A stretch of 64,000 bases of DNA, taken from the NCBI RefSeq assembly GCF_026241095.1, contig NZ_JAPFGB010000016.1, forward strand, positions 1 to 64,000, written 5' to 3'. This stretch comes from Saccharopolyspora sp. NFXS83. GTDB taxonomy: Bacteria > Actinomycetota > Actinomycetes > Mycobacteriales > Pseudonocardiaceae. Position 1 is the stretch's first letter. Every line of letters begins with the position of its first letter. Of the stretch, positions 37,850 through 62,336 are shown one piece after another. The translations under genes and the position numbers were made by a program. The notes under the pieces were generated by a model. That model was given only the letters and a program-made list of their open reading frames with translations. It was not told where the DNA came from and did not search any database.

Positions 37850-37992
37850 AGGAAGGGAACCTTCCTGTCACCGGGGCGAAGAAGGTCGCCTTTCTGCCAT
37901 CCGCCACCGGAAGGCCGCACGGCCTCGCCATCGCACTGAGCGCGTAGAAGGGAACCTTCCTGTCACCGGTGACAGGAAGGTTCCCCTCCTCG
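37850..37992. repeat. family A palindromic repeat, site 2
   Basis: Four units occur: a perfect unit at 37850-37866, a diverged one near 37878-37899 in the same orientation, and a head-to-head pair at about 37947-37991 joined by GTCACC-GGTGAC. The site fills the gap between hutI and the convergent DUF6104-like gene. Confidence 0.8.
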
Positions 37993-38049
37993 CATCGAAG
38001 CTCGGGGGAGATCGCCGGGACAGGTGCGACGTGGTGCGGCGGGGGAGGG

Positions 38050-38241
38050 TCAGTCCTCGTCGGTGTCGTCGCGGGCCAAGAAGGTCGCGAGGCGTTCCGT
38101 GGCGTCCTCGAAGGCCGGGTTGAGGTCGACGAAGACCCGCATCCGGTCGGCGATCCAAGCCAAGGTCACCTCGTCATCACCGCGACGCTCCTCGAGCTCT
38201 TCGATGCCACGGTCGGTGAAGTACACCGCTTCCTCCTCCAT
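38050..38241 (-). CDS. small acidic protein, DUF6104-like
   Basis: This 63-residue protein contains VYFTDRGIEELEERRGDDEVT and WIADRMRVFVDLNPAFEDATERLATFLAR, the pattern I remember as DUF6104, a short actinobacterial family often next to kgd. It is predicted to be helical and very acidic, with no known function. I place the start at 38241 (MEEEAVYF); a longer in-frame ATG at 38298 would translate part of a family A repeat and is unlikely. It is downstream of kgd on the same strand, but a terminator and repeat separate them. Confidence 0.78.
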   Translation of the reverse strand: MEEEAVYFTDRGIEELEERRGDDEVTLAWIADRMRVFVDLNPAFEDATERLATFLARDDTDED

Positions 38242-38276
38242 GCGTTCGCCGACGGCACACGCCGCCGGACCCTGAC

Positions 38277-38323
38277 AGCAAGGGAACTTTACTGTCACCG
38301 GTGACAGGAAGGTTCCCTTCCTC
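38277..38323. repeat. family A palindromic repeat, site 3
   Basis: A head-to-head pair is centred at 38299/38300 on CACCGGTG. The right arm is perfect, while the left arm has decayed (AAGGGAACTTTACTGTCACC). It lies between the kgd terminator and the DUF6104-like gene. Confidence 0.78.
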
Positions 38324-38343
38324 CCCCGCCCCTGAACGCGAAA

Positions 38344-38379
38344 GCGGGCCGCCGGTTCCCGGAGGAACCGACGGCCCGC
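38344..38379 (-). terminator. kgd terminator
   Basis: GCGGGCCG-CC-GGTTCC pairs with GGAACC-GA-CGGCCCGC around a CGGA loop, 15 bases beyond the kgd stop. Confidence 0.8.
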
Positions 38380-38393
38380 GATCTACGACGAGA

Positions 38394-41300
38394 TCAGTTG
38401 AAGGCGTTCTGCACGACCTCGGCCTGCTCGACGTCGTGGACGGCCTTCAGGCCGGTGGCCGGAGCGGCCATCGGGCGCCGCGACACGCGCTTGAGGCCCT
38501 GCAGCCGCTCGGGGAACAGCTCCGGCAGCGCCAAGCCGAGGAACGGCCACGGACCCTGGTTCGCCGGCTCCTCCTGCGCCCACCGGACGTCGGTGGCGTT
38601 GGGGTAGCGCTCCAGCACCGCGCCGAGCTTGCGGTGCGGCAGCGGGTACAGCTGCTCCAGCCGCACCACGGCGGTGTCGGTGTGGCCCTTCTTCTCCTTC
38701 TCGGCGGCCAGCTCGTAGTAGAGCTTGCCGGAGCAGAACACGATCCGGCGCACCGCCGACGGGTCCGGCTGCGACGGGTCGTCGATGACCGAGGTGAACT
38801 TGCCCTCGGTGAAGTCGGCGACCGAGCTCGTCGCGGCCTTCATCCGCAGCATCGACTTCGGCGTGAAGACGATCAGCGGGCGGTGGATGCCGTCCAGCGA
38901 GTGCCTGCGCAGCAGGTGGAAGTGGTTCGCCGGGGTCGACGGCAGCGCCACCGTCATGGAGCCTTCCGCGCACAGCTGCAGCCAGCGCTCGATGCGCGCC
39001 GAGCTGTGGTCCGGGCCCTGGCCCTCGTGGCCGTGCGGGAGCAGCAGCACCACGTCGGATCGCTGGCCCCACTTGGCCTCACCGGACGAGATGAACTCGT
39101 CGATGATCGACTGGGCGCCGTTGAAGAAGTCGCCGAACTGCGCCTCCCACGCCACGAGGGCGTCGGGGTTGGCGACGGAGTAGCCGTACTCGAAGCCCAT
39201 CGCGGCGAACTCGGACAGCGCCGAGTCGTAGGCGAGGAACTTCGCCTGGTCCTCGGCGAGGTTCAGCAGCGGCGTGTACTCCGACCCGGTCTTGCGGTCG
39301 ATGAGCACCGAGTGCCGCTGGCCGAACGTGCCGCGCCGGCTGTCCTGCCCGGTCAGCCGCACCGGGCGGCCTTCCATGGCGAGCGAGCCGAACGCGAGCA
39401 GTTCGCCGAAGCCCCAGTCGATCTCGCCTTCGCGGGCCATCTTCGCGCGGCGTTCCAGCACCGGCTTGACCCGCGAGTGCGGGGTGAAGCCCTCGGGCAG
39501 GTTCACGTGCGCGTCGGCGATGTGCTCCAGCGTCTCCGGGGAGATCGCGGTGACCAGCTTCGTCGGCACGACCTGCTCGGACTCCACCGACGGGCTCGGC
39601 TCCGGCGGGTGCTTCTCCAGCTCGCGGACCTCGTTGAAGACGTGCTCCAGCTGGCTGGCGTAGTCCTTGAGCGCCTTCTCGGCCTCTTCGACGGTGATGT
39701 CACCGCGGCCGATGAGCGACTCGGTGTAGGTCTTGCGGACGCTGCGCATCTTGTCGATGGCGTCGTACATGGCGGGCTGCGTCATCGACGGGTCGTCGCC
39801 CTCGTTGTGCCCGCGGCGGCGGTAGCAGACCATGTCGATCACGACGTCCTTGCCGAACGCCTGGCGGTACTCCACGGCCAGCTTCGCGACCCAGACGCAC
39901 GCCTCGGGGTCGTCGCCGTTGACGTGGAAGACCGGCGAACCGATCATCTTCGCCACGTCGGTGGAGTACTTGCTCGACCGCGAGTGCTCCGGGGCGGTGG
40001 TGTAGCCGACCTGGTTGTTCACGATCACGTGCACCGTGCCGCCGGTGCGGTAACCGCGCAGCAGCGACAGGTTCAGCGTCTCGGCGACCACGCCCTGACC
40101 GGCGAACGCGGCGTCGCCGTGCAGCAGCACCGGCAGCACCGTGAAGCCTTCCTGGCCCTTGTCCAGGATGTCCTGCTTGGCGCGGACGATGCCTTCCAGC
40201 ACCGGGTCCACGGCCTCCAGGTGCGAGGGGTTCGAGGTCAGCGACACCTTGGTCTCGCCGTCGCCGAACATGCGGAAGTACTTGCCCTCCGCGCCCAAGT
40301 GGTACTTGACGTCACCGGAACCGTGCGCCTGGCCCGGGTCCAGGTTGCCCTCGAACTCGCGGAAGATCTGCGAGATCGGCTTGCCGACGATGTTGGCCAG
40401 CACGTTGAGGCGACCGCGGTGCGGCATGCCGATGACGACCTCGTCGAGGTCGGACGCGGCCGAGGAGTCGAGCACCGCGTCCAGCAGCGGCACGACCGTC
40501 TCGGCGCCTTCCAGCGAGAAGCGCTTCTGCCCGACGTACTTGGTCTGCAGGAACGTCTCGAACGCCTCGGCGGCGTTGAGCTTCGAGAGGATGTACTTCT
40601 GCTCGGACTGCTCCGGCTTCTCGTGCGGCTTCTCGACCCGGTTCTGCAGCCAGTCGCGCTCGTCGGGTTCGAGGATGTGCATGTACTCGACGCCGACGGT
40701 GCGGCAGTACGAGTCGCGCAGCACGCCGAGCACGTCGCGCAGCGTCATGCGCTCCTTGCCCGCGAAACCGCCGACGGCGAACTCCCGGTCCAGGTCCCAC
40801 AGCGTGAGGCTGTGCGAGAGGACGTCGAGGTCCTCGTGCCTGCGCTGCCGGTAGTTCAGCGGGTCGATGTCGGCCATCAGGTGACCGCGGGTGCGGTAGG
40901 CGTCGATCAGCTCCAGGACCCGCGCGGTCTTGTCGACGGCGCCTTCCGGGATGTCCTGGGTCCAGCGGATCGGCTCGTACGGGATGCGCAGCGACGAGAA
41001 GATGTCGTCGAAGAACCCGTCCTCGCCCAGCAGCAGCTGGTGCACCTTGCGCAGGAAGTCGCCGGACTCCGCGCCCTGGATGACCCGGTGGTCGTAGGTG
41101 GAGGTCAGCGTGACGATCTTGCTGATGCCCATCTCGACCAGGGCCCGCTCGGAGGCGCCCTGGAACTCCGCCGGGTAGTCCATCGCCCCGACGCCGATGA
41201 TCGCGGACTGGCCCTTGGTCAGCCGCGGCACCGAGTGGTTCGTGCCCGACGGGCCCGGGTTGGTCAGCGAGAACGTGGTGCCGGAGAAGTCGTCCGCGGT

Positions 41301-42110
41301 CAGCCCACCGGAGCGGGCCTTGCGGATGATCTCCTCGTAGGCCTGCCAGAACTGCTGGAAGGTCATCTCTTCGCAGCCCTTGATGGAGGCCACGACGAGG
41401 TTGCGCGACCCGTCCTTGCCGGGCTGGTCGATCGCGAGACCGAGGTTCACGTGCTCCGGGGTGATCGCCGCGGGCTTGCCCTTGGCGTCCTCCCCGTAGT
41501 GGCGGTTCATGTTCGGGAAGTCCCGCATCGCCCGCACCAGCGCGTAGCCGATGAGGTGGGTGAACGAGACCTTGCCGCCCTTGTTCCGCTTGAGGTGATT
41601 GTTGATCACGATGCGGTTGTCGAACAGCAGCTTCGCCGGCACCGCGCGCACGCTCGTGGCGGTCGGCACCGTCAGCGACTGCTCCATGTTCTTGGCGATC
41701 GCCGCGGACGCGCCGCGCAGCGGCTTCGCCTCCTCGCCGGTGCCCGAGCTCTTCACCGGAGCGGCCTTCGCGGCCTGCTGCGGGGAGGGCTTCGGCTCGG
41801 CCGCCTTGGCCGGCTTCGGCGCGGCCTGCGCGGCGGCGGCCGGGCGAGCCTGCCCGTTGCCCTCGCTGCGCGTGGCCGTCGCAGTCGTAGTTCCCGACAC
41901 CGTCGTCGTCGCGGTCGACCCGGCTCCGGATGCGGCTGCGGAGTTGTCAGCGGCTACCGAAACCGAGGTCGCCTGCCCCGGCTTGTAGTCGGCGAAGAAC
42001 TCGTGCCACGCGGAGTCCACCGACGTGGGATCTTGGAGGTACTGCTCGTACATCTCCTCGATCAACCACTCGTTGGGGCCGAACTGTGACGCAGGGCTGC
42101 TGCTGGACAC
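38394..42110 (-). CDS. kgd: multifunctional 2-oxoglutarate metabolism enzyme (Kgd/SucA with E2 domain)
   Basis: This 1238-residue enzyme combines 2-oxoglutarate decarboxylase/dehydrogenase E1 and an acyltransferase E2 core, as in Mycobacterium Kgd and Corynebacterium OdhA. The order is: N-terminal [18 protein letters not shown] helix, Ala/Pro-rich linker (~50-105), E2 core (about 110-350, with [12 protein letters not shown] and [19 protein letters not shown]), then the thiamine-dependent E1 ([48 protein letters not shown]). There is no lipoyl domain. The GTG start gives [15 protein letters not shown], the family N-terminus; an upstream ATG would add 14 residues. The enzyme is controlled by the FHA protein GarA/OdhI in relatives. 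Confidence 0.97.
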
Positions 42111-42476
42111 GGCTGGCGTTCGCCTCGATCCATCTGCTCGTGATGTACACACTCAAGTACCAGGCTAGCGGTCCGATTAGTGCGATTGGCACACAGTGCG
42201 GACCTGGTGGTGAGGAGCTCGGTCACAGGATCGATCAGGAAGGTTCCCCACCAGGCAAACCTGACCCGTTCGGGTGTCGTTGACGATCATCGGTACCCCG
42301 TACTATGCGCCGACTCCCCACCGGTGTGCCCGGTGTCTCTCCGGCCTGTCTGTCGCGCACGAGCAGTACAACGTTTCGGTGACAAGCCGTGTTCCCGCCT
42401 TGCGGGATGGCCGAGTCCGCACGTCGGGATCTGGTGACACCGCGTGTCCGCGATGACCTGTTCGGTGAGGCCCCGG
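42111..42476. other. 366-base region upstream of kgd
   Basis: This holds the kgd promoter on the minus strand, where no obvious -35/-10 pair was found. On the plus strand TTGACG (42280-42285) and TACTAT (42301-42306) resemble a primary-sigma promoter, though the 15-base spacing is short and no plus-strand gene follows. CCCGC-CTT-GCGGG at about 42392-42404 is a small hairpin. Confidence 0.35.
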
Positions 42477-45400
42477 TCAGGGGGAAGTGCGGACCGGGTC
42501 GTGCGCTGCGTCACCGCGCACCGCGTCGTCCTCGTTGTAGTGATCACCCGCCCGCCACAGCCGCGCGTAATGACCGTCGAGCCCGATCAACTCCGAGTGC
42601 GTGCCGTCCTCCACGATCCGGCCGCCGTCGATCACGACGATCCGGTCCGCCCGAGCCGCCGTGCCCAGCCGGTGCGCGACGACGAACGTGGTCCGCCGGG
42701 AAGCCGCCCGGTCACTTGCCGAGACCACCAGCGACTCCGTGGCCGGATCCAGCGCCGCCGTCGCCTCGTCCAGCAGCAGCAGATCCGGCCGGACCAGCTC
42801 CGCGCGAGCCAGCGCGACCAGCTGGCGCTGCCCCGCCGAGAGCTCCCGCCCGCGCTCACCCACCTGCTGGCGGAAACCGCGGTGCAACATCGTGATGCCC
42901 GGCAGCGCGCCCACGTCGCGCGCCGCCCGCTCCACGTCGGCGTCCGTCGCCGTCGGCCTGCCGTAGGAGATGTTCGACGCGACATCACCGGCGAACAGGT
43001 AGCCCTCCTGCGGCACCACCGCCAAGCGGTGGTGGTAGCCGGTGAGGTCGTAGTCCCGCACGTCCACCCCGTCGACCAGCACCGCGCCGTCGGTGGCGTC
43101 GTAGAACCGGGCCAGCAGCTTCACCAGCGTCGACTTGCCCGCACCCGTCGGCCCCACCAGCGCCACCGTGGTGCCCGGATCCACCTTCAGCGACACGTCG
43201 CGCAACGCGGGCCGCTCGGTGCCCGGATAGCGGAACGACACCGAACGCAGCTCGACCTCACCGGCGAACCGGTCCGGCACCGCGACCGGCTCCGCCGCCT
43301 GCGGCACCGACGTGGGGGTGCGCAGCAGGTCACCGATGCGGCGCAACCCGACCCGCGCCTGCTGGTAGGCGTCGAACACGCCCGACAACTGCTGCACCGG
43401 GGAGAAGAACATGCCCAGGTACAGCAAGAACGCCACCAGCACCCCGGCCGTCATCCCACCGGCCGCCACCCGCGTCGCGCCCACGCCCAGCACCACCGCC
43501 TGCGCCAGCTCCGAGAGCAGCGCCGTGAACGGGAAGTACGTGGCGATGTAGCGCTGCGCGCGCAGCCGCGAACGCCGGTACGCGTCGCTGCGCTGCGCGA
43601 ACAACTTCGCCGAATGGCTTTCGCGGCGGTGCGCCTGCGCCACCCGCAGCCCGGACACGTTCTCCTGCAGGTCCGCGTTCACCGTGCTGACCCGTTCGCG
43701 CGCCTCCGCGTACGCGGTCGACGACACCCGGCGGAAGATGACCGTGGCCACGATCAGCGGCGGCAGCACCGACAACGCCACCAGCGCCAGCGACAAGTCC
43801 GTGACCAGCAGCGCGACCGCGATGCCCACGATGGTGAACAGGCTCACCACCGCCGTGGCCAGTCCCGTCTGCAAGAACGAGGACAACGCGTCCACATCGG
43901 TGGTCATCCGCGTCATGATCCGGCCCGCGAGCTCGCGCTCGTAGTAGTCCAGCCCGAGCCGCTGCAGATGCGCGTAGCTGCGCACCCGCAGCAAGTACAG
44001 CAACGTCTCGCCGGTGCGGGCCGTCACCACCGTCTGCACCTTGATCACCAGCCAGCTGACCAGCACGATCCCCCCGGCGATTGCGGTGACCAGCCACAAC
44101 GTCCCGGCGTTGCCCACGTCGACACCGCCGTCCACGCCGTGGCGCACCAGCGACGGCAACGCGATCGACCCCAGCGCGTCCGCCGCCACCAGCAGCACCG
44201 TCAGCGCCAGGCCCCAGCGGATCGGCCGCAGCAACCGCGCCAGCCGGAACCCCGGATCGGGCGCCGTCGCGTCCACCTCCGGCAACCGGGGCGCGTCCCG
44301 GGCTGCGGGCAACCCGCTCAGGCCCGCCGCCAACTCCGGAGTCAGCGGCGTGGCGGTGCCCCCGCCGTCCCCGCGCGTGCCGCGCACCCCGCCCGGAGCC
44401 ACCACCGCCTGCGGCTCCGGTTCCGGCACGTCCTCGGGCCACCACGCCGGCGTCGGCGCGGACTCGGCCGCGTCCGGCTCGCCCGCGCTCGCCGTGTCGA
44501 TCGACTCACCCGGCCCCACCAGCAGCGAGCGGAACAATCCGCACCGCCGCTCCAACTCGTCCTGCGTGCCCACGTCGACGACCCGGCCCGCGTCGAGCAC
44601 CGCGATCCGATCCGCCAACGCCAGCGTCGAACGGCGATGCGCGATCAACAACGTGGTGCGCTGCGCCGTCACCGACCGCAGCGTGTCGTGGATGGCGGCC
44701 TCCGTGGCCGGATCCACCGCCGACGTCGCATCGTCGAGAACCAGGATCCGCGGATCCGACAGCAACGCCCGCGCCAACGCCACCCGCTGCCGCTGCCCGC
44801 CCGACAACGTCAGCCCGCGCTCGCCGACCGCCGTCTCGTACCCGTCGGGCAACGCCGAGATGAACCCGTGCGCCTCCGCCGCCCGCGCCGCCGCGACCAC
44901 CTCCGCCTCCGACGCGTCCGGCCGCCCGTAGGCGATGTTGCCGCGGATCGTGTCCGAGAACAGGAACGCCTCCTCGAACACCACCCCCACCGCCGAGCGC
45001 AGCGACTCCAGCCGCACATCGCGCACGTCGTGATCCGGCTCGGCGTCGGCGGGCCCGATCCGCACCGAACCCTGCTGCACGTCGTAGAAGCGCGGCAGCA
45101 GCAACGACACCGTCGACTTGCCCGACCCCGCCGGGCCCACCAGCGCCACCGTCTCGCCCGGCTCCACCAGTAACGACACGTCCCGCAGCACCTGCTGATC
45201 GCGCGTGTAGCCGAACCCGGCGCCGTCCAGCCGCACCCGCAGCGGAGCCTCCGGCAGATCCACCGCCCCCGGCCGGTCGCGCACATCCGGACGCGAATCG
45301 ATCAGATCCGTGATCCGCTCCATGCCCGCGCGGGTCAACTGGCCCTGCACCAGCACGCTCGCCATCATCCGAGCCGGACCGCCCAGCATCGCCACGTACG

Positions 45401-46262: not shown

Positions 46263-46331
46263 CGATCCAGATTAGGTCCCACCCCCGACGCTCCGAGCCC
46301 ATCAGCGACGTGGACCACCCCGCCAGGACGA

Positions 46332-46470
46332 GCGAGGAAGGGAACCTTCCTGCCACGGGTGCGAGGAAGGGAACCTTCCTGCCATCGATCGCGATCGGCG
46401 CGGTTCCACGGCCCCGAACGCGAAGAAGGGAACCTTCCTGCCACCCGTGGCAGGAAGGTTCCCTTCCTCT
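46332..46470. repeat. family A palindromic repeat, site 4
   Basis: Two units in the same orientation (46335-46351 and 46364-46380) are followed by a head-to-head pair at 46424-46469, joined by TGCCAC-CC-GTGGCA. Note that both arms carry GCCA/TGGC here, where other sites have GTCA/TGAC. The change is symmetrical. The site separates the ABC-2 genes from the fused exporter. Confidence 0.8.
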
Positions 46471-46488
46471 GCGAGCGCCCGAGGCGCC

Positions 46489-48368: not shown

Positions 48369-48481
48369 CGTCGCTCGGCCCCGCCGGGGTGCCGCGAGGG
48401 CGACCGCGGACGATCACGCTCCGGCGCGGGGCGGTCCCATCCTGCCTGACCGGCTCGCGTCGTTCGGGAGGAGTGCGGAAA

Positions 48482-50439: not shown

Positions 50440-50520
50440 CCGGTCCACCTCCCCGTCGCCTGGAGCTCCTCCCGCATCATCCGCCCACGACCCGCTCCCC
50501 GCGCCCCTGCACGCCTGCCG

Positions 50521-50582
50521 CGGGTGCGAGGAAGGGAACCTTTCTGCCACCGGTGACAGGAAGGTTCCCTTCCTCGCACCCG
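50521..50582. repeat. family A palindromic repeat, site 5
   Basis: This is a 62-bp palindrome with 31-base arms centred at 50551/50552. The arms extend the usual unit to CGGGTGCGAGG and differ at only two positions. It lies between the ald start and the 3' end of the GH30 gene, nine bases from the GH30 stop. Confidence 0.85.
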
Positions 50583-50590
50583 ATCCGGAG

Positions 50591-52054
50591 TCAGGCCGGG
50601 GGCCAGGTGAAGGTGGCGAGGCCGCCTGCGGGGAGCGTGTGGTCGAACTCCTGGCCCTGCCAGGACACGGTGATCGGGCGTTCGGCGCCGCCGGGGTTGA
50701 GCGCGATCAGCGCGGTGGAACCGTCCGGGTTGCGGAACGCGACGTTCTGCACCCCGTCGAGCTCGTTCGAGCCGATCCGGACCGCTCCGGGGCGCACGAA
50801 CTTGCTGGCGTGCCCGAGCGCGTAGTACTCGGCGTTGTAGTCCACCTCGCCGGTGGCGTTGTTGACGGTGGTCACTCCGGTGCAGTCGGAGCACGCGCCG
50901 TCCATGACCGGGCCGTGCGCCGGGTCCAGCGCCAGGTTCCACAGCACGACGCTGCGGGCCCAGTTGCGGGTGCCGCCGATGATCAGGTTGCTCGCCTGCC
51001 AGGTCAGCGTGTCGCCGAAGGTCGCCGCCGGATCCTCGGACTCGGTGCCGGAGCATTCGGTGAGGTGGATCTCGGCGTCCGGATGCGCGTCGTGCACCGC
51101 GCTCTGCGCGTCCGGCGTGCCGCCGTAGCAGTGGAAAGCGGCTCCGTCCACGTATCGCGCGGCGTTGGCATCGCCGAGCACGTGGTTCGGGTAATCGGTG
51201 TCGTCCCAGTTGTGGTCGTAGGCGAGGATCTTCGTGTCCAGGCCAGCGGCGTCGAGCTTCGGCCCGAGGTCGTTGCCGATGAACGCGGCCTGGGCGTCCG
51301 GAGACATCGGGCTGCCCGGGTACGAAGGCGGATCGTTCAACGGTTCGTTCTGCGGAGTCAGCGAATCGATCGGGACCCCGGCCTGCTCGTAAGCCTGCAC
51401 GAAGCGGACCAGGTAGTCGGCGAAGACCTGGTAGTTGTGCGCCGGAAGTTCCCCGCCGACCATGGAGCCGTTGGACTTCATCCACGCGGGCGCGCTCCAC
51501 GGCGTCGCCACCACGTTCAGCTCCGGAGCCAGTTCCCCGGCCCGTCGGAGCAGCGGGAGGATGTCGGCCTCGTCGTGAGCGATCGAGAACTTCGCCAGCT
51601 CGTAGTCGCTCTCACCGGCGGGCACGTCGTCGTAGCTGTAGGTCGAGCGCGCGAAGTCCGAGGCGCCGACGACCTGCCGCAACGCGGTCAGGCCGATTCC
51701 GGATTCCGCGTCGAACAGCCGGGACATGATCTCGTCGCGCCGCGGGGAGTTGTTCACCAGCCAAGCCGACGAGTCGGTCAGCGCCGCCCCGAACCCGTCG
51801 ACGGCCTGGTACGTCGTCCCGGGATCGACCGTGATCGTCTCGTTCCCGCCACCCGAGCCGAACTCCGCGTCGGGCTGGCGCGCGAGCTTGCTCTGGCCGT
51901 CCTTCGTGGTCAGCCAGATTCCCACCGCCGGGGCCGCGTGCGCCGGCGGAGCGAGCACCAGACCGGTGCTGAGCGTGATCGCGGAGAGCACCATGGCGGC
52001 GGCCCGCCCGCGGCGAGGCGCCTCGACCCCGCCTCGTGTCCTGTGATCCGACAT
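50591..52054 (-). CDS. secreted GH30 family glycosidase (glucosylceramidase-like)
   Basis: This 487-residue exported glycoside hydrolase has a signal sequence with a basic n-region and a hydrophobic core ending in APPAHA (about 40). GYGAALTDSS-like GFGAALTDSSAWLV begins the catalytic barrel; the acid/base Glu is in TPQNEPLND (about 236) and the nucleophile Glu in HLTECSGTE (about 333). A beta-sandwich follows at the C-terminus (LIALNPGGAERPITVSWQG). Family members cleave glucosylceramide or beta-1,6-glucan. The ATG at 52054 places the signal peptide correctly; the frame is open further into a family A repeat. Confidence 0.92.
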   Translation of the reverse strand: MSDHRTRGGVEAPRRGRAAAMVLSAITLSTGLVLAPPAHAAPAVGIWLTTKDGQSKLARQPDAEFGSGGGNETITVDPGTTYQAVDGFGAALTDSSAWLVNNSPRRDEIMSRLFDAESGIGLTALRQVVGASDFARSTYSYDDVPAGESDYELAKFSIAHDEADILPLLRRAGELAPELNVVATPWSAPAWMKSNGSMVGGELPAHNYQVFADYLVRFVQAYEQAGVPIDSLTPQNEPLNDPPSYPGSPMSPDAQAAFIGNDLGPKLDAAGLDTKILAYDHNWDDTDYPNHVLGDANAARYVDGAAFHCYGGTPDAQSAVHDAHPDAEIHLTECSGTESEDPAATFGDTLTWQASNLIIGGTRNWARSVVLWNLALDPAHGPVMDGACSDCTGVTTVNNATGEVDYNAEYYALGHASKFVRPGAVRIGSNELDGVQNVAFRNPDGSTALIALNPGGAERPITVSWQGQEFDHTLPAGGLATFTWPPA

Positions 52055-52122
52055 CCGCCCAGGGTGGTCCAACCAATCTCCTCCGGGTAGCTCCATTCGG
52101 TCGCAACCCCGCGCTCCGCGAG

Positions 52123-52174
52123 GCGAGGAAGGGAACCTTCCTGTCACCGGTGACAGGAAGGTTCCCTTCCTCGC
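52123..52174. repeat. family A palindromic repeat, site 6
   Basis: This is a perfect 52-bp palindrome with 26-base arms running from GCGAGGAAGG to the centre CACC/GGTG at 52148/52149. It is the only family A site between divergent genes (GH30 and gcvH), so terminator activity alone does not easily explain it. Confidence 0.88.
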
Positions 52175-52264
52175 TCGATCCGTGTGATCCGGAGCGAGGG
52201 GGCATTGACACCGACGGGTGCCCGTTTATCGTTGCTGGGCACGTCCACAACCGCATATGCCGCA

Positions 52265-52455
52265 GATCCCGGGCGGGAGAGACCTCGCACCGACGGGGCG
52301 CCGAAGGAGCAAACACTCCCTGCAAACTCTCAGGCACCCATGACCGCTCGGGCGAGGCGACTCTGGAAAGCGCGCGCTCCGGCGCCGCACCCACGGTGCA
52401 AATCGCGCACGACGCGGTGAAGCTCTCAGGTTCCGCAACAGAGGGGGAGGCCCAC
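52265..52455 (+). promoter_or_regulatory. tandem glycine riboswitch
   Basis: Two glycine aptamers lie in series. Aptamer 1 runs from about 52266 to 52338, with CGGGAGAGACC at the start, GCGCCGAAGGAGCAAAC in the middle and AACTCTCAGGCACC at the end. Aptamer 2 runs from about 52341 to 52450, with CGGGCGAGGCGACTCTGG, then GGTGAAGCTCTCAGG and a closing GAGGGGGAGGC. These are the conserved P1, P3a and P3 junction sequences of the gcvT RNA element. It precedes gcvH by about 45 bases and should switch on gcvH-sdaA when glycine is high. Confidence 0.93.
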
Positions 52456-52495
52456 GAACCGGGCACACCTGTGCCCACGATGGTGAGGAGCCTCC

Positions 52496-52870
52496 ATGTC
52501 CCTGCCCGAGCAGCTGCGCTACACCGAGGAACACGAGTGGATCGAGGACCGCGGTGACCTGGTCCGCATCGGCATCACGCCCTTCGCGGCCGAAGCGCTC
52601 GGCGACATCGTGTACGTGCAGCTCCCCGAGGTGGGCGAGCGGATCGAATCGGGCCAGACCTGCGGCGAGCTGGAATCGACGAAATCGGTCAGCGACCTGT
52701 ACGCGCCCGTGACCGGCGAAGTCGTGGCGGTCAACGACGCGGCGGCCGACGACCCCGCGGTGGTCAACGGGGACCCGTTCGGCGAGGGCTGGCTGCTCGA
52801 AGTGCGTGCCGAGCAGACCGGTGCTGTGCTCACAGCGCAGCAATACGCCCAGTTGACCGGTGGTGAGTAA
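52496..52870 (+). CDS. gcvH: glycine cleavage system H protein
   Basis: This 124-residue lipoyl carrier shuttles the aminomethyl group between the P, T and L proteins of glycine cleavage. The lipoylation site is [14 protein letters not shown] (Lys63), and YTEEHEWIE and [12 protein letters not shown] are family blocks. GAGGAG lies six bases before the ATG. It stands directly behind the glycine riboswitch and 23 bases before sdaA. The gcvT and gcvP genes are not in the window, so they must be elsewhere. Confidence 0.97.
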
Positions 52871-52893
52871 GCCGGGCTGAGGGGGACGGATCT

Positions 52894-54246
52894 GTGACGA
52901 TCAGCGTCTTCGACCTCTTCTCAGTGGGCATCGGGCCGTCGAGTTCGCACACCGTCGGCCCGATGCGGGCGGCCGGGATGTTCACGGCACGTCTGCGCAC
53001 CGAGGGTCTGCTCGGTGAGGTCACCAGGGTGAAAGCCGAGCTGTTCGGTTCGCTCGGAGCGACCGGGCATGGTCATGGCAGCCCGAAAGCGGTGCTGCTC
53101 GGGCTCGAAGGGCACGATCCGGAGACGGTGGAGCCCGCCGCGGTCGAACACCGGGTGGATGCGGTCCGCACCGGTGGCCGGCTGTCGCTGGCGGGCGAGC
53201 ACGACATCGCCTTCTCCGTCGATCGCGACCTCGTGATGCACCGGCGGAAATCGCTGCCGCTGCATCCCAACGGCATGCGGTTCACCGCGTTCGGTGCCTC
53301 GGGTGAGCTGCGCGCCGCGGTGTTCTACTCCGTCGGCGGCGGTTTCGTGGTCGACGACGGCGCCACCGGGGCCGACCGGATCAAACCGGACGAGACCGCG
53401 GTCCGGCACCCGTTCCGCACCGGGGAGGAACTGCTCGCCAGGGTGGCCGCTTCGGGATCGCGGATCAGCGACGTCATGTTCGAGAACGAGCTGTCGTGGC
53501 GTTCCGCGGCGGACGTCCGCGCTCAGCTGCTGCACATCTGGGGCGTGATGCGCGAATGCGTCGACAACGGGTGCGGCAATGACGGCGTGCTGCCGGGCGG
53601 GTTGAAGGTGAACCGGCGCGCCGCGGCGCTGCAGGCGAGCCTCACCGAGCAGGACGACCCGATGGAGTGGCTCACCCTGTTCGCCCTCGCGGTCAACGAG
53701 GAGAACGCGGCAGGCGGTCGTGTCGTCACCGCGCCCACGAACGGGGCCGCGGGCATCGTTCCCGCGGTGCTGCACTACTACGTGCGCTTCGTTCCCGGTG
53801 CCGGCGAGGACGGCGTGATCCGGTTCCTGCTGGCGGCAGGGGCGATCGGCGTGCTGTTCAAGGAGAACGCCTCGATCTCCGGTGCCGAGGTCGGGTGTCA
53901 GGGCGAGGTCGGCTCGGCGTGCTCGATGGCGGCGGCCGGGCTCGCCGAGGCGCTCGGTGCGACGCCGTGGCAGGTGGAGAACGCCGCTGAGATCGCGATG
54001 GAGCACAACCTCGGGCTCACCTGCGATCCGATCGGTGGCCTGGTGCAGATTCCGTGCATCGAGCGCAACGCCGTCGCCTCGGTCAAGGCGGTCACCGCCG
54101 CGCGGATGGCGCTGCGCGGGAACGGCAGCCACGTCGTCTCGCTCGACAAGGTCATCAAGACCATGCGCGACACCGGCCGCGACATGAAGGCCAAGTACAA
54201 GGAGACCGCTCGCGGCGGCCTCGCCGTCAACGTCATCGAGTGCTGA
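52894..54246 (+). CDS. sdaA: L-serine ammonia-lyase, iron-sulphur type
   Basis: This 450-residue one-chain L-serine dehydratase gives pyruvate and ammonia. The N-terminal beta domain begins [25 protein letters not shown]. The alpha domain carries the [4Fe-4S] cysteines in [17 protein letters not shown] and VQIPCIERN, plus [18 protein letters not shown]. The GTG start has GGGGGA upstream. Placed behind gcvH under the glycine riboswitch, it would remove serine formed from surplus glycine, so the pair makes a glycine-to-pyruvate route together with GlyA. The stop lies 45 bases before a family A half-site. Confidence 0.96.
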
Positions 54247-54291
54247 TCCCGCCGCCCTGCCCGAAGCGCCGATCGACTCCGCGCGGGCAGG

Positions 54292-54440
54292 GCGAGGAAG
54301 GGAACCTTCCTGTCAGGGTCTGCTTCATCCCGCGCTCGCCGTGGTGGCCGGTGTGGTGAGGTGCCGACTCGGTCGTCGTTCGTGCCCGGGTCGGAGGAGC
54401 ACGTGTCGGCGCTGGATGACAGGAAGGTTCCCTTCCTCGC
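54292..54440. repeat. family A palindromic repeat, site 7 (split)
   Basis: The left half (54292-54315, ending GTCA) and the right half (54417-54440, beginning TGAC) are both intact and face each other. They are separated by 101 bases of unrelated sequence, as if the centre had been interrupted. It follows sdaA, and the right half ends two bases before the ohrR operator. Confidence 0.8.
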
Positions 54441-54441
54441 A

Positions 54442-54476
54442 TTAGATTGTGTGCAACTTAGTTGCGGGCAACCTAA
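54442..54476. promoter_or_regulatory. OhrR-type operator
   Basis: The AT-rich stretch contains two overlapping near-palindromes: TTAGATTGTGTGCAACTTA and TTAGTTGCGGGCAACCTAA. It includes the perfect arms GCAACT/AGTTGC and GTTGC-GG-GCAAC. It sits 36 bases upstream of ohrR and is the likely operator for autoregulation by OhrR. Confidence 0.65.
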
Positions 54477-54511
54477 ATCAGGGTTAGTGTCGATCTCGTG
54501 CAGGAGGCGGG

Positions 54512-55030
54512 ATGAGTTCGGACTCGGTGCTGTCGCTGGATCGGCAGGTGTGCTTCGCGCTCTACAGCGCATCGCGCTCGTTCACCAACCTGTATCGGCC
54601 GTTCCTCGACGAGCTGGGGCTGACCTACCCGCAGTACCTCGTGATGCTGGTGCTCTGGGAACGGGATTCACTGGCGGTCAAGGACCTCGGGGCGACGCTC
54701 CGGCTCGATTCCGGGACCCTGTCGCCGTTGGTGAAGCGGCTCGAAGCCGGTGGCCTGGTCGCGCGGCGGCGCAGCGCTCGGGATGAGCGGTCCGTCGAGG
54801 TCGGGCTGACCGACGACGGCCGCGAACTACAGCAGCGGGCGGCGGCCGTTCCGCGTCGAGTCCTCGCCGCCAGCGGCATGGGACTCGACGAAGTGCGCGA
54901 ACTGCGCTCGACGCTCGAACGGCTCACGGCGAACGTGGACGAGGCCGCGGAGCGGGCGCGGTCCGCGGTGGCGGCGGGCATTCCCATCACCGACGAGCTC
55001 CTGCGCGGGACCACGACAGAAGGAGACTGA
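54512..55030 (+). CDS. ohrR: organic hydroperoxide-sensing MarR repressor OhrR
   Basis: This 172-residue MarR-family protein has the OhrR redox Cys at position 14 in LDRQVCFALYSASRS. A winged helix follows with LAVKDLGATLRLDSGTLSPLVKRLEAGGLV (about 54-83) and the wing RRSARDERSVEVGLT. Oxidation of the Cys by organic peroxides releases DNA and turns on ohr, which starts one base after its stop. AGGAGGCGGG just before the ATG is a good ribosome binding site. The C-terminal 25 residues are slightly longer than usual. An operator-like repeat lies upstream. Confidence 0.94.
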   Translation: MSSDSVLSLDRQVCFALYSASRSFTNLYRPFLDELGLTYPQYLVMLVLWERDSLAVKDLGATLRLDSGTLSPLVKRLEAGGLVARRRSARDERSVEVGLTDDGRELQQRAAAVPRRVLAASGMGLDEVRELRSTLERLTANVDEAAERARSAVAAGIPITDELLRGTTTEGD

Positions 55031-55031
55031 G

Positions 55032-55451
55032 ATGGCAGCGCTGTACACGGCCGAGGCGACCGCGACCGGCGAGGGCAGGGGCGGACGCACCCGGTCCTCC
55101 GACGGTGTGCTCGACCTGGACCTCGCGGTGCCGCGCGAGATGGGCGGCCCGGGTGGGGACTCCACGAATCCCGAGCAGCTGTTCGCCGCCGGCTACGCCG
55201 CGTGCTTCCACAGCGCGCTGCAGCTGGTGGCGCGCAAGGCGAAGGCCGACATCGCCGACTCCTCGGTGACCGCCCAGGTCGGCATCGGCAGCAACGGTTC
55301 GGGCGGCTACGGCCTGAGCGTCACCCTGTCGGTGAGCCTGCCTGGCATCGACCGCGAGCAGGCGCAGCAGCTGACCGAGCAGGCCGACTCGGTGTGCCCG
55401 TACTCGAACGCCATCCGCGGCAACGTGCAGATCGATCTCGCGGTGGCCTGA
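55032..55451 (+). CDS. ohr: organic hydroperoxide resistance protein Ohr
   Basis: This 139-residue thiol peroxidase of the Ohr/OsmC fold reduces organic hydroperoxides with lipoylated proteins as electron donors. The two catalytic cysteines are Cys58 in AAGYAACFHSALQL and Cys122 in DSVCPYSNAIRGN. The conserved Arg is in the GGRTRSSDG segment, and the Glu in NPEQLFAAGY. It is in an operon with ohrR (one base between), with AGAAGGAGA before the ATG. A strong terminator follows. Confidence 0.96.
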   Translation: MAALYTAEATATGEGRGGRTRSSDGVLDLDLAVPREMGGPGGDSTNPEQLFAAGYAACFHSALQLVARKAKADIADSSVTAQVGIGSNGSGGYGLSVTLSVSLPGIDREQAQQLTEQADSVCPYSNAIRGNVQIDLAVA

Positions 55452-55465
55452 CGACGTGAACCGGT

Positions 55466-55502
55466 CGTGCCGCGCCGGGCCGTCGAGGCCTGGCGCGGCA
55501 CG
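55466..55502. terminator. bidirectional terminator between ohr and DUF202 genes
   Basis: CGTGCCGCGCC pairs with 55492-55502, with an inner GGCC-GTCGA-GGCC hairpin. It is placed between convergent genes. Confidence 0.85.
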
Positions 55503-55503
55503 G

Positions 55504-55836
55504 TCACATCAGCAGCACGTACACCGTTCCGATCAACCCGGCCAGCACCGCCAGCGCGGTGAGCGAAGCGTGCAGCGCGCCGTCCGGCAACGGGGCCTCG
55601 GCGCGCAACCGGCGCTCCGCCTGTCGATGCCTGCTCCACGACAGCATTGTGATCGCGACCGCGAGCGGGATCGCCACCGCGGCGCACACCGCGGCGGCCA
55701 CGGCGCTGCGGTGCACCAGCAACCGGAGCAGCACCATCAAGCCCACGACGAACGTCAGCCCGGTGCGCAACCAGGCGAGCGTCGTGCGTTCGATCTGCAA
55801 GCCGGGATCCCACGGACCCTGCCGTTCGTCCGGCAT
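55504..55836 (-). CDS. DUF202 membrane protein 1
   Basis: This 110-residue protein has three transmembrane helices (about 25-43, 49-69 and 90-108). It carries the DUF202 signature ERTTLAWLRTGLTFVVGL at the first helix. Function is unknown for this family. It begins two bases after the stop of a second DUF202 gene, so they form an operon and may make a hetero-oligomer. The ATG at 55836 places the typical short polar N-terminus (MPDERQGPWDPGLQIERT) before the signature. Confidence 0.85.
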   Translation of the reverse strand: MPDERQGPWDPGLQIERTTLAWLRTGLTFVVGLMVLLRLLVHRSAVAAAVCAAVAIPLAVAITMLSWSRHRQAERRLRAEAPLPDGALHASLTALAVLAGLIGTVYVLLM

Positions 55837-55838
55837 CC

Positions 55839-56237
55839 TCAGAACCCGCTGATCAGCAGCAGCGCGAGCGCGCCGAGCCCGATGACGCCCAGGCCGAACC
55901 CGAGGATCGGCGCCAGCTTCGGCGGTGGCAGGGGGGAGTTCGTGCGCAGCGCCCGCTCCATGGTCATCCACCGGCCGAACGCCGCCACGCTGCACACGAC
56001 GCCCGCCAGCAGCAGGAGCACGGCCAACGAGGTGCGCAGCGGATCGGAGCCGGTGCCCGCCGCGGCGTTCAGGGCCTCGACGCCGACTCCCGCGGCCATC
56101 AGCGCCAGGGCGGTCCGGATCCACGCCAGGAACGTTCGTTCGTTGGCGAGCGTGAAACGGGGGTCGGGTTCGTCGCCGACCCCGTAGATCCGATGTGGCC
56201 AGCGCCTACAGGCAGGGTCGTCGTTCTCGGAAGCCAT
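55839..56237 (-). CDS. DUF202 membrane protein 2 (YidH-like)
   Basis: This 132-residue paralogous DUF202 protein has the signature DPRFTLANERTFLAWIRTAL at about 26-45, followed by three helices. The longer soluble N-terminus (MASENDDPACRRWPHRIYG) and the order of the genes resemble the YidH/YidG pair of enterobacteria. The ATG at 56237 is preferred over one 21 codons upstream, because the upstream part has no protein-like features. Its role is unknown. Confidence 0.83.
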   Translation of the reverse strand: MASENDDPACRRWPHRIYGVGDEPDPRFTLANERTFLAWIRTALALMAAGVGVEALNAAAGTGSDPLRTSLAVLLLLAGVVCSVAAFGRWMTMERALRTNSPLPPPKLAPILGFGLGVIGLGALALLLISGF

Positions 56238-56299
56238 GCGGCCACCGTAGTGCGACCGGCGCAACGAGCTGCGGCGGAGTGCGCGCGCGCACTGCTCCA

Positions 56300-56336
56300 C
56301 GCGGACACCGGCCCCCGCAGTGCGAGAGCCGGTGTC
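56300..56336 (-). terminator. terminator of the SSI-type inhibitor gene
   Basis: An 11-bp perfect stem (CGGACACCGGC and complement) around a 15-base loop lies 12 bases beyond the stop. Confidence 0.75.
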
Positions 56337-56348
56337 CGGTGGCGGGCC

Positions 56349-56747
56349 TCAGAAGTCGAAGACGGTGCCCAAGTGCGAGGTCGCCTGGCAGCTGTTGCCG
56401 AATTCCTTGTCGAAGTGCACCGGCTTGCCCTGCCAGGTGCCGTGCGCGCTGGCCACCACCGGCCGGAGCACCATCGTGCACTGCGCGCCGGTCTGGGCCT
56501 GGCCGATCTGATCGAAGTTGCCCCCCGCGGCGAGCAGGCTCTCGCAGGCCTCGGCGGCCCTCGGGTGCGTGCCGCCCGTCGGCTCGCACCGCAGCTGCAC
56601 GGTGCGCGGCTCCTCGGCGCGGTTCTTGCTCGCGATCGTGAGCGTCAGGTGGCTCGTCGTCGCGGTGGCGTTCGCCATCGCCGGGGTGAGCAGGAGGGCT
56701 GCCATCGCCGCGAGCAGAAGGCCGCGGAAGAACCGGGTGCGGGACAT
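56349..56747 (-). CDS. secreted subtilisin inhibitor-like (SSI) protein
   Basis: This 132-residue precursor has a clear signal peptide (basic MSRTRFFRG, hydrophobic core, AMANATA near 28) and a mature domain of about 104 residues with the SSI pattern. It has four Cys (in VQLRCEPT, AEACESL, AQCTMVLRPV and GNSCQATS) in the usual two-disulphide arrangement. HGTWQGKPVHFDKEFGNSC and the closing VFDF match well. The reactive loop reads CTMVLRPV, giving Met-Val at P1-P1', the same as classical Streptomyces subtilisin inhibitor. It should inhibit secreted serine proteases. GGAG lies nine bases before the ATG. Confidence 0.92.
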   Translation of the reverse strand: MSRTRFFRGLLLAAMAALLLTPAMANATATTSHLTLTIASKNRAEEPRTVQLRCEPTGGTHPRAAEACESLLAAGGNFDQIGQAQTGAQCTMVLRPVVASAHGTWQGKPVHFDKEFGNSCQATSHLGTVFDF

Positions 56748-56950
56748 GTCTGTGCGCTCCAAGGGGTTGAGGAAGGTTCCGCACAGATTTATCGGCAGCA
56801 CCCCGCCGATTTCCGCATCCGCGACCGAAGATCACCAGATCGTGGTTCGCGATCGTGGAGTCAGGTGACTCTCGAGTGATCTATCCCAGGCTTCTCGGTT
56901 GGCTCATTCACCCCAAAGTGAGTGTTGTGTTTGGGGTGATGAGCGCCCAG

Positions 56951-57087
56951 GCGAGGAACGCCGCACGGGGCGCGCGGCGACGGATGACAGGAAGGTTCCC
57001 TTCCTCGCACCGGTGGCAGAAAGGTTCCCTTGCTCGCTCGGAGGGGAACGCGCCCGGCGCCGGTGACAGGAAGGTTCCCTTCCTCGC
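56951..57087. repeat. family A palindromic repeat, site 8
   Basis: Three units in the reverse orientation lie at 56985-57008, 57014-57037 (variant, CTTGCTCGC) and 57064-57087. A left-arm remnant GCGAGGAA occurs at 56951-56958. The last unit ends 12 bases before the acyl-CoA ligase stop. The rest of the 352-base gap up to the SSI gene holds an AT-richer stretch near 56890-56940, but no gene. Confidence 0.8.
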
Positions 57088-57099
57088 GGAGTCGGTGGA

Positions 57100-58797
57100 T
57101 CAGTCGTAGAGGGATTCGAGGGTGTCGGCGTACTTGTCGTGGATGACGCGGCGGCGCAACTTCAGCGCCGGGCTGAGCTCGCCGCCCTCGGCACCCCACT
57201 GGCGGTCGAGCAGGCGGTGGGCGAGCACCTGGCCGGACTGGCCCAGCGCGGCGTTGGCCGCTTCCACCGCGCGGTCCACTTCGGCCACGACGTCGGGATG
57301 CCGGGCCAGCTCGGCCAGGCCGGTCGCGGAGATCCCGCGCGCGCGGGCCCATTCGGGCGCGGCGTCCTCGTCGAGCACGAGCAGCGCGACGACGTGCGGT
57401 CGCCCCTCGCCGAAGGCGAGCGCGTGGCCGATCAGCGGGTGCGAGCGCAAGGCGTGCTCCACGACGCTGGGCGCGACGCTCTCCCCGTGGGAGCTGACGA
57501 TGAGCTCGCTCTTGCGGTCGGTGACGGTGAGGTAGCCGTCCTCGACGCCGCCGACGTCTCCGGTGCGCAGCCAGCCGTCGGCGTCGGTGGCCACTCGGAT
57601 CAGCCCGTCTTCTTGCAGGTGCCCGGCGCAGACGAGGGGGCCGCGGACCAGCACTTCGCCGTCCTCGTCGGTGCGGAGCTCGACGTCGGGCAGCGACTTG
57701 CCGACGGTGCCGAAGCGGACGGCGCCGGGCCGGTTGGTGGTGGCCCAGCCGCTCGTTTCGGTCGATCCCCAGGTCTCGAAGATGTGGAAGCCGAGTCCTG
57801 CGAACAGGTCGAGGACGTCGCGGCCGATCGCGGCGGCCCCGCTGGCTCCCCACACGGTGCCGTCCAGTCCTAGTCCGCTGAGGACTTCCTGCTTCTCGGC
57901 CGCGTTGTGCGGAGCAGGGAGCGCGCGGGCGATCGCGGCGAGCTTCTCCCACATCCTCGGCACCCCGAAGAAGGTGTGCGGGCGCACCACGGGCAGTTGC
58001 CGGATGGCCTGCGTGATGCCGTTGCAGAAGTGGACGTGGGTGACGTCGTGGATCGCGCTGTAGAGGTTGCCCGCGCGTTCGGAGATGTGCGCCATCGGCA
58101 GGTAGCAGAGCGTGCTGGTGTGCGGCGGTACGCCGGTGACCCGCTGCCGGGCGGAGGCGGCGGCGAGCACGTTGCGGTGGGTGAGCACGACCGCGCGCTG
58201 CACGCCGATCGCGTCGGGGGAGTAGAGCACGGTGGCCGGGGAGTCGGGGGTGACGTTCGCGGCGTGCCGGTCCACGATCGACGGATCCCGGCGCAGGTGC
58301 CGTGCGCCGCGGTCGCGCAAGGTCCGCCAGGTGAGGAAGCGGTCGTCCTCCTCGGGGATCGCATCGTGGTCGACGGCGATGACGTGGCTGAGCGAGTCCG
58401 GTTCGCGCAGCGCCGCAGACCAGCGCCGCACGTGGTGGGCGTTGCTCAGCACGGCGATGTGCGCGCGGCTGTGCTTGCTGACGTCGCGTACTTCTCGGGA
58501 GTTCAACGCGGGGTGCACCGCGATCGGCACCGCTCCGAGGTGGGTGACGGCCACGTCGGCCAGCCACTGCTCGGCGCTGTTGGACATCATCAGCACCACG
58601 GTCTGGCCGGCTTGCAGGCCGAGGTCGGCGAACCCGGCCGCGAGGTCGTGCACGGCTTCGGCGGCCTCGTACCAGGTCCAGGTGCGGCCGTCGGCGGTCA
58701 GCGCCGGATGGTCGCGGTGCTCGATGGCGTTGCGGCTGAACAGGTGCGGAATGGTCGCGGTCGGCGCCTGCACCGCAGTCTCCGCGGGTGTGCTCAT
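57100..58797 (-). CDS. long-chain acyl-CoA synthetase-like protein with altered P-loop
   Basis: This 565-residue adenylate-forming enzyme is of the long-chain fatty acid CoA ligase subgroup. Motifs include FETWGSTETSGW (A5, ~345), DGWLRTGDVG (A7, ~411), LTVTDRKSELIVSSHGESVAP (A8) and LSPALKLRRRVIHDKY with the C-terminal Lys (~545). The ATP-binding P-loop, normally TSGTTGxPKG, reads YSPDAIGVQRAVVLTH at about 189, so the Thr-rich loop and its Lys are lost. Such a change should weaken or alter adenylation. The ATG has GGAGGAG five bases upstream. A 16-bp palindrome lies 32 bases upstream. Confidence 0.9.
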   Translation of the reverse strand: MSTPAETAVQAPTATIPHLFSRNAIEHRDHPALTADGRTWTWYEAAEAVHDLAAGFADLGLQAGQTVVLMMSNSAEQWLADVAVTHLGAVPIAVHPALNSREVRDVSKHSRAHIAVLSNAHHVRRWSAALREPDSLSHVIAVDHDAIPEEDDRFLTWRTLRDRGARHLRRDPSIVDRHAANVTPDSPATVLYSPDAIGVQRAVVLTHRNVLAAASARQRVTGVPPHTSTLCYLPMAHISERAGNLYSAIHDVTHVHFCNGITQAIRQLPVVRPHTFFGVPRMWEKLAAIARALPAPHNAAEKQEVLSGLGLDGTVWGASGAAAIGRDVLDLFAGLGFHIFETWGSTETSGWATTNRPGAVRFGTVGKSLPDVELRTDEDGEVLVRGPLVCAGHLQEDGLIRVATDADGWLRTGDVGGVEDGYLTVTDRKSELIVSSHGESVAPSVVEHALRSHPLIGHALAFGEGRPHVVALLVLDEDAAPEWARARGISATGLAELARHPDVVAEVDRAVEAANAALGQSGQVLAHRLLDRQWGAEGGELSPALKLRRRVIHDKYADTLESLYD

Positions 58798-58828
58798 GTG
58801 GCTCCTCCACTCACGAGGCGGCCACCTT

Positions 58829-58844
58829 CGTGACATGAGTCACG
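58829..58844. promoter_or_regulatory. palindrome upstream of the acyl-CoA ligase gene
   Basis: CGTGACATGAGTCACG has perfect 6-base arms around ATGA, 32-47 bases before the start. It is a candidate operator for a TetR/GntR-type fatty acid regulator. None is encoded next to it; the neighbouring regulator is MerR-type. Confidence 0.4.
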
Positions 58845-59078
58845 GTGACCTCGCCGATGAAACCGCACGAAGGGCCGATTTGGCCAGTAGGCGGACGGGT
58901 GCGGTGCGCTCGCCGCCAGTTCGCCCTGGGTTCGCGATCGGGAGCCGCGTTCGGCTGTCAGGGGAGCCGTTTCGCTCGTTCGGGTCGTGCGGCCCTCGCT
59001 TCGGGTGACGACGGCGTCGCGACGTCCGGAGTTGCCGCGCGCCGTGAGTCCCTCATGGCCGGAGGGATCTCACGACCG

Positions 59079-59131
59079 TGGCAGGAAGGTTCCCTTCTCC
59101 GCACCGGTGACAGGAAGGTTCCCTTGCTCGC
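59079..59131. repeat. family A palindromic repeat, site 9
   Basis: Two reverse-orientation units lie at 59079-59102 (ending CTTCTCCGC) and 59108-59131 (ending CTTGCTCGC), seven bases beyond the stop of the MerR gene. The 230 bases to the left, up to the acyl-CoA ligase start, show no other feature. Confidence 0.78.
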
Positions 59132-59138
59132 GGAGGGG

Positions 59139-59858: not shown

Positions 59859-59876
59859 GGTCGGGGAGCTTACTCC

Positions 59877-59906
59877 TTGACCGCTGTGACACCAACGATG
59901 TAACAC
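59877..59906 (+). promoter_or_regulatory. MerR-type long-spacer promoter for the CoA transferase
   Basis: TTGACC (59877-59882) and TAACAC (59901-59906) are 18 bases apart, or 19 to the alternative AACACT. The spacer holds TGTGACA and TGTAACA, two matching palindromic heptamers 14 bases apart. The geometry fits a promoter untwisted by a MerR protein. Confidence 0.45.
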
Positions 59907-62318: not shown

Positions 62319-62336
62319 CGTCACGAGAGGTGCGGC

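Follow-up and report, generated by a model that had tools for sequence, protein, structure and literature searches.

Few families of short sites that mark a single domain of a bacterial chromosome are known to us, and matS/MatP of the Escherichia coli Ter macrodomain is the clearest case. In the parS/ParB system, clustered dyad sites act over a domain. matS is a 13-bp site with 23 copies in the 800-kb Ter domain, according to PMC3330122. Repetitive extragenic palindromes (REPs) and bacterial interspersed mosaic elements (BIMEs) are described in PMC3733652 as short palindromic intergenic units, often head-to-head, that lie mostly after coding sequences and between convergent or codirectional genes. 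Here, we analyzed a 64,000-nucleotide stretch of Saccharopolyspora sp. NFXS83 (the window; positions 1 to 64,000 of NZ_JAPFGB010000016.1, here contig C8), which carries a dispersed palindromic repeat that we call family A. Our leading but tentative reading of the sequences is that family A units are binding sites of a putative site-specific DNA-binding protein that would organize one chromosomal domain in a matS-like manner.

We compared the source genome (G000, a 6.9-Mb draft of 70 contigs) with five genomes of the same genus (G001 to G005), two of a second genus (G146 and G240, the latter S. rosea), and S. hirsuta (G223). The 17-mer AGGAAGGGAACCTTCCT gave 35 matches in the window (both strands, up to 3 mismatches) against 0.07 expected, so the repeats are real. 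These matches collapse to 22 units once those on both strands are merged. All nine intergenic places named in the original prediction, which was made from the window alone, are present, along with one extra weak unit, and its perfect palindrome was confirmed at 52 bp. The 17-bp unit proposed there exists, but a 29-bp unit is the better description. When units from five genomes were aligned (81 to 110 each; units with more than 3 mismatches were left out of all per-unit statistics), the conserved element proved longer and asymmetric, GCGAGgAaGGGAACCTTCCTG(T/C)CACC, with ends GCG and G(T/C)CACC. A 29-bp imperfect dyad, GGTGCGAGGAAGG-GAA-CCTTCCTGTCACC, describes the unit best; its outer left bases GGT are weakly conserved. 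Exact abutting at 29-bp spacing is frequent in the four own-genus genomes, with 20 to 22 head-to-head cases per genome and head-to-tail cases too; the long palindromes arise because units abut exactly. In S. hirsuta, the commonest spacing is 41 to 42 bp in direct orientation. Strand use is about equal (33 and 48 units in G000, and similar in the four other genomes). The suggestion that paired arms stay symmetric where bases change was weakly borne out, with pair identity about 2.0, 1.7, 0.4, and 2.8 standard deviations above that of shuffled pairs in four genomes.

Family A is confined to one chromosomal domain. Exact 17-mers, the probe for G000 to G003, fell on C8 at 9.8 to 161.8 kb in G000 (28 of 28), at 5,303 to 5,444 kb in G001 (32 of 32; 141 kb), at 1,031 to 1,156 kb in G002 (44 of 44; 125 kb), and at 1,087 to 1,198 kb in G003 (11 of 11; 110 kb). 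For the second genus, the looser 16-mer GGGAACCTTCCTGTCA with up to 1 mismatch placed all 86 matches of G146 within 190 kb and all 42 of G240 within 203 kb; the reversed pattern, used as a control, gave zero matches in these genomes. With a looser 12-mer, 51 of 51 places fell inside the G001 domain and 60 of 61 inside the G002 domain, the remaining one lying at 2.63 Mb. Elsewhere in G002, the sampled sequence held two single matches (up to 3 mismatches) at 4.41 and 4.92 Mb, about the number expected by chance. In the genomes mapped, the domain spans about 110 to 200 kb, whereas the whole chromosome measures some 6 to 7 Mb; in the five genomes examined for units, it carries 32 to 51 sites with 81 to 110 units. 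In six genomes, the units were restricted to one domain, like matS, rather than spread through the genome, like REP/BIME elements. Counting the 17-mer genome-wide and in relatives, as the original prediction advised, showed that units extend beyond the window, and in relatives too, in one domain. The concentration in 21 kb that it described is a window effect, because 79 of the 81 units on C8 span 37.8 to 161.8 kb; the outliers lie at 9.8 and 172.9 kb.

The domain also keeps its distance from dnaA. The DnaA match is 0.9 kb into the G002 and G003 records and at 6,470 kb of G001, which puts the domain 1.03 to 1.20 Mb from dnaA in these three genomes. The G240 record starts at dnaA, and its domain is 0.88 to 1.08 Mb away, taking the record as circular. 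The distance is similar (0.88 to 1.20 Mb) across these four single-contig genomes; in G146, dnaA was not within the first 5 kb of the record. rho lies inside the repeat domain, as do genes that we take to be kgd and atp genes. In G000, rho and the second, ATP-synthase-like match point in opposite directions and are separated by 40 kb; in S. hirsuta they share one direction and only about 13 kb separates them. Even so, the units cover about the same genes in both genomes. One domain edge in S. hirsuta is near the end of the analyzed stretch and hence is not fixed.

The original prediction had left a choice between a REP/BIME-like family and a chromosome-organizing element. The latter is favored because the units are confined to one syntenic domain in two genera. 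We infer that a protein, probably a dimer, would read the 29-bp dyad. Dense site clusters would mark a domain of about 110 to 200 kb on one chromosome arm, about 1 Mb from oriC, and the bound protein would bridge, condense, anchor, or insulate it. It would work like matS/MatP or parS/ParB, with another sequence and another place. Family A resembles matS in being a short site with many copies within one domain. Unlike matS, it is 29 bp long, often in abutting pairs, about 1 Mb from dnaA, and far denser (81 to 110 units in about 110 to 200 kb). It resembles parS in its clustered dyads over a domain but differs in sequence and place. In six genomes, the domain stretches analyzed held no site within 1 mismatch of the parS consensus, and we rejected identity with parS on this basis. 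Single 2-mismatch parS-like matches occur in the domain stretches of G000, G001, and G005; in the 1.78 Mb of G002 that were sampled, the sole site within 1 mismatch of parS lies near dnaA, at 23.7 kb.

Many sites occupy matching gene ends in the two genera. We scored gene 3' ends at 9 to 166 kb of C8, counting the two genes of a convergent pair separately. G000 and G001 agreed in 39 of 39 ends with units. Between G000 and S. hirsuta, whose median protein identity is 78.6%, 20 ends carried units in both genomes, 12 and 6 in just one of them, and 56 lacked units in both (odds ratio, 15.6; p = 1.4e-7). Another 35 genomes from the same family and order lacked the exact 17-mer. Of 249 genomes sampled across the family, which represent 46 genera, 16 from two genera contained a strict 21-mer. 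This count is a lower bound, because G232, negative for the 21-mer, has 20 units (up to 3 mismatches) in an 80-kb syntenic stretch. G015, from another genus, had no unit in 80 kb at the same threshold. When one genome per species was scanned, a 23-mer turned up in 31 stretches, all from 11 named Saccharopolyspora species, and 30 of these stretches carry homologs of C8 genes at 38 to 177 kb (only C8 proteins served as queries).

The congeners G004 and G005 have no motif genome-wide in the 17-mer, 12-mer, and 16-mer searches, and G005 has no unit in 200 kb of its syntenic stretch. At 82.8% protein identity, G005 is closer to G000 than S. hirsuta is. The simplest history would be ancestral presence followed by loss in the G004/G005 lineage, given that G000 and the second genus have sites in common. 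Such absence is as expected if sites vanish once their factor is lost. Gaps of G005 at unit sites are shorter, with a median difference of 53 bp at 29 gene ends, compared with 13.5 bp at 34 others (both flanking genes orthologous in every gap used).

Units are intergenic and lie at gene 3' ends. In five genomes, gaps of at least 45 bp were occupied in 49 of 89 cases when convergent, in 109 of 306 when tandem, and in 22 of 123 when divergent. In tandem gaps, units start a median of 25 bp past the stop codon, and in 95 of the 109 they lie closer to the stop. Units fully inside genes called by our composition-based script numbered 0 of 81 on the G000 contig, 0 of 97, 2 of 85 (G002), 0 of 99, and 2 of 110 (S. 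hirsuta); the earlier statement that none lies in a called gene holds for C8 and fails in these two relatives. One C8 unit (150207 to 150223) overlaps the called start of the next gene, which may be miscalled. The dyad looks like a protein site, and the units could be operators of a regulon whose genes chance to cluster in the domain. We regard this as very unlikely: units follow genes and are rarer in divergent gaps, and the flanking genes searched are functionally mixed. Furthermore, 17 of 49 unit-bearing gaps in S. hirsuta lie between genes without a reciprocal best match on C8 (orthologs may lie elsewhere), and therefore position seems to count more than gene identity. A search of sampled G002 outside the domain for unit-free relatives of the unit-bearing S. 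hirsuta genes gave one weak match (65.5% identity) at 3.55 Mb.

In layout, family A shares much with REP/BIME elements: a 29-bp dyad, within the 20 to 40 bp of such repeats, with 81 units on C8, intergenic, after stop codons, rare in divergent gaps, and often head-to-head. To this extent, the REP/BIME-like description stood. The genome-wide spread, the REP-associated transposase (RAYT), and the GTAG/CGTC tag did not, and the stem is not conserved in S. hirsuta. The check for a RAYT (Y1 transposase, PF01797) gave 0 matches in the seven repeat-bearing genomes (G000 to G003, G223, G146, and G240), and a RAYT-driven REP was rejected for that reason. The search covered nine genomes in all and gave Y1 transposase matches in the repeat-free G004 (C30:59796) and G005 (C1:2447842 and 4665956) alone. 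The unpaired GTAG or CGTC tag that most REPs carry at one end (PMC3733652) is absent from the family A consensus. Membership in REP/BIME is doubtful because family A is confined, without a RAYT, and without the tag. It also differs from the GTAG-23 REPs of T. roseum, which form blocks at a few loci in one species, whereas family A forms separate sites along a two-genus domain.

A related possibility is that a REP/BIME-like element or one resembling miniature inverted-repeat transposable elements, with no organizing role, entered an ancestor, spread over short range, and filled safe gaps after stops. The placement in convergent and tandem gaps just past stops and the head-to-head pairs agree with this, as do the shorter gaps of repeat-free G005 and the variation in unit number at one site between genomes (e.g., 3 and 8). 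A second family of similar layout (family B, below) is dispersed. However, no Y1/RAYT was found in any bearing genome, two genera and six mapped genomes show no clear escape from the domain, and the motif columns are constrained. We know of no precedent for local-only spread of such an element. Most REP families are genome-wide, according to PMC3733652. We consider this history rather unlikely, and we favor the matS-like binding-site reading over it.

Conservation within the unit is uneven. We compared columns at orthologous sites between G000 and each of G001 to G003 (both flanking genes orthologous, gaps of 60 to 900 bp; S. hirsuta was not included). The ten core columns GGGAACCTTC were 0.93 to 0.97 identical, compared with 0.80 to 0.92 in the flanks. 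Some single outer columns are also kept, and two positions, the C that follows GGGAACCTT and the T in GTCA, are more variable than the flank in each of the three comparisons. This mosaic is contact-like and would fit protein binding. The original prediction stressed a hairpin, and this emphasis was unsupported. Across five genomes, there was no covariation in the 17-bp stem, whose Watson-Crick pairs are at about the shuffled expectation. In S. hirsuta, two stem pairs are broken in about 60% of units and the left arm drifts to AGCATGG, yet GGGAACCTTCCTG is exact in 101 of 112 matches. Because the stem lacks covariation and S. hirsuta breaks it while keeping GGGAACCTTCCTG, the conserved property does not appear to be the 17-bp hairpin.

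These observations bear on whether the units act as RNA, that is, as transcribed hairpins at gene ends that terminate transcription or shield mRNA 3' ends. Their position after stop codons would suit such a role, and head-to-head pairs have strong predicted folds (z, −7.9 to −9.9; three tested). However, the only head-to-tail site tested folds less well (z, −3.4), and the broken and noncovarying stem argues against this role. None of the five terminator-like matches in 37.5 to 57.2 kb overlaps a unit, no terminator T-tract was found, and Rfam gave no match at units in the window. Finally, an RNA role leaves confinement to one domain unexplained. We rejected it as the principal explanation and consider it improbable.

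We also considered that family A might descend from a plasmid, a phage, or another mobile element that integrated here and carried centromere- or packaging-like repeats. In outline, tandem abutting dyads resemble plasmid partition sites. However, the domain genes keep their order between species, and blastn of one palindrome against 72,556 plasmid and 50,697 phage records found no match, and we rejected this origin on that account. Three stretches in viral contigs are about the chance number by a rough estimate. A mobile origin is hardly credible.

Several results weigh against an organizing site family. Motif identity exceeds flank identity overall by only a moderate margin: 0.944 and 0.904, 0.921 and 0.840, 0.875 and 0.814, and 0.805 and 0.770, respectively, the last on 7 gaps (only gaps with both flanking genes orthologous were used). 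Even spacing of sites was not significant in four genomes (P = 0.085 to 0.55). REPs likewise sit after stop codons, according to PMC3733652. Two congeners live without family A. The two strict 21-mer matches of G212, in the second genus, are on two contigs, and the 23-mer stretch of S. soli (L072) has no C8 homolog with C8 proteins as queries. The search for a DNA-binding partner, also advised at the outset, gave no convincing candidate: nine domain genes are common to S. hirsuta and without an ortholog in the G005 stretch. One of them is MarR-type and another is presumably LacI-type; these are the only regulator-like ones of the nine and are probably local regulators.

We found no published description of the motif strings GGAAGGTTCCCTTCC and GAAGGGAACCTTC; most subscription papers lie outside the searched literature, so absence from print is unproven. 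Among the matches listed in the Saccharopolyspora-repeat and related literature, there was no account of family A, and no paper listed on domain contacts, mobility, or segregation refers to Saccharopolyspora. The excerpt of PMC3610266 reports macro-regions and long inverted repeats and does not describe the family A motif.

Family A sites in the window. Positions are those of the window; mismatches are relative to the 17-mer.
Feature	Coordinates	Strand	Context
Single exact core unit, outlier left of main domain	9810..9826	+	58 bp past + stop, 5 bp from − stop
Exact core unit, left edge of main domain	37850..37866	+	17 bp past stop of amidohydrolase-family gene
Head-to-head pair (2 + 1 mismatches), 29-bp spacing	37945..37990	.	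Predicted fold −38.2 kcal/mol
Head-to-head pair (3 + 0 mismatches)	38277..38322	.	71 bp from 3' end of gene 38394-42110 (−)
Weak unit (3 mismatches), absent from the original prediction	42237..42253	−	
Four units: 46335 and 46364 head-to-tail, 46423/46452 head-to-head	46335..46468	.	20 bp from stop of ABC-2-like gene
Head-to-head pair	50529..50574	.	16 bp from stop of GH30-family gene
Perfect 52-bp palindrome, two abutting units	52123..52174	.	In divergent gap
Single exact unit	54295..54311	+	48 bp past + stop
Single exact unit	54421..54437	−	74 bp ahead of + start
Three same-orientation units, 29 and 50 bp apart	56989..57084	−	15 bp from stop of AMP-binding enzyme gene
Head-to-tail pair	59083..59128	−	10 bp from stop of MerR-type gene
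In-window part of repeat domain	37850..64000	.	Runs on to about 161.8 kb of C8

Among the neighboring genes, the long one at 38394-42110 (−) resembles, we presume, kgd. The ABC-2-like gene near 46.4 kb has a match just below the Pfam cut-off. A glycine riboswitch aptamer (RF00504; 64.4 bits) at 52264-52356 (+) adjoins the perfect palindrome and lies upstream of a gcvH-family gene at 52496. Elsewhere in the window, 28687-29852 holds a tandem duplication that repeats about every 650 bp; its pieces are 84 to 92% identical, and the stretch has no called gene. Two neighboring paralogous genes at 7644-9143 have products with MCGRYA at or near the start, which we take to be SRAP-type proteins.

A second family in G002, family B (AGTGAACGGACCGTTCGTC), is built like family A, with head-to-head units at 30-bp spacing and a 12-bp palindromic linker. 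It is located at 5,713,502 to 5,748,621 of G002 C1 (L140 to L142) and also in stretches L123, L126, and L128. There are 207 exact 16-mer places in G002, 100 of which were positioned. Sampling of G002 in 20-kb pieces (89 stretches; 1.78 of 6.88 Mb) placed 45 matches in four stretches at 5.70 to 5.80 Mb, compared with 61 in the other 85; 5.80 to 6.88 Mb is outside the sampling, so the extent of the dense zone is not fixed. With up to 4 mismatches, family B had 0 or 1 match in the family A domain stretches of G000 to G003, compared with 7 in the syntenic stretch of G005. Mutual exclusion of the two families is only suggestive, because the 334-kb B-free interval in G002 is not rare by a rough Poisson estimate. 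The zone at 5.70 to 5.80 Mb is roughly the mirror of the family A domain across oriC, a coincidence noticed post hoc. One could imagine an address code in which abutting-dyad families mark territories, family A about 1 Mb from oriC and family B roughly at its mirror. Putative readers would fold or place the chromosome, and loss of a reader would erase its sites, as in G004 and G005. We give this idea little credence. Other short repeats lie left of the family A domain in L123 to L130 (0.84 to 1.0 Mb of G002), with 9 copies of GGGAAAAAGATCCC and 12 of CCGTGCCTTGCGGC. CGCAAAGCACGGC has 13 copies in one 20-kb stretch outside the domain, and L148 is among the stretches with other repeats.

If spread is only local, family A would stand out among repeats because it disperses within a single domain. 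If the matS-like reading is right, dozens of conserved sites mark a core-gene domain in an antibiotic-producer genus, and natural relatives exist without the sites. Therefore, how domains of a bacterial chromosome are defined may be testable by comparison.

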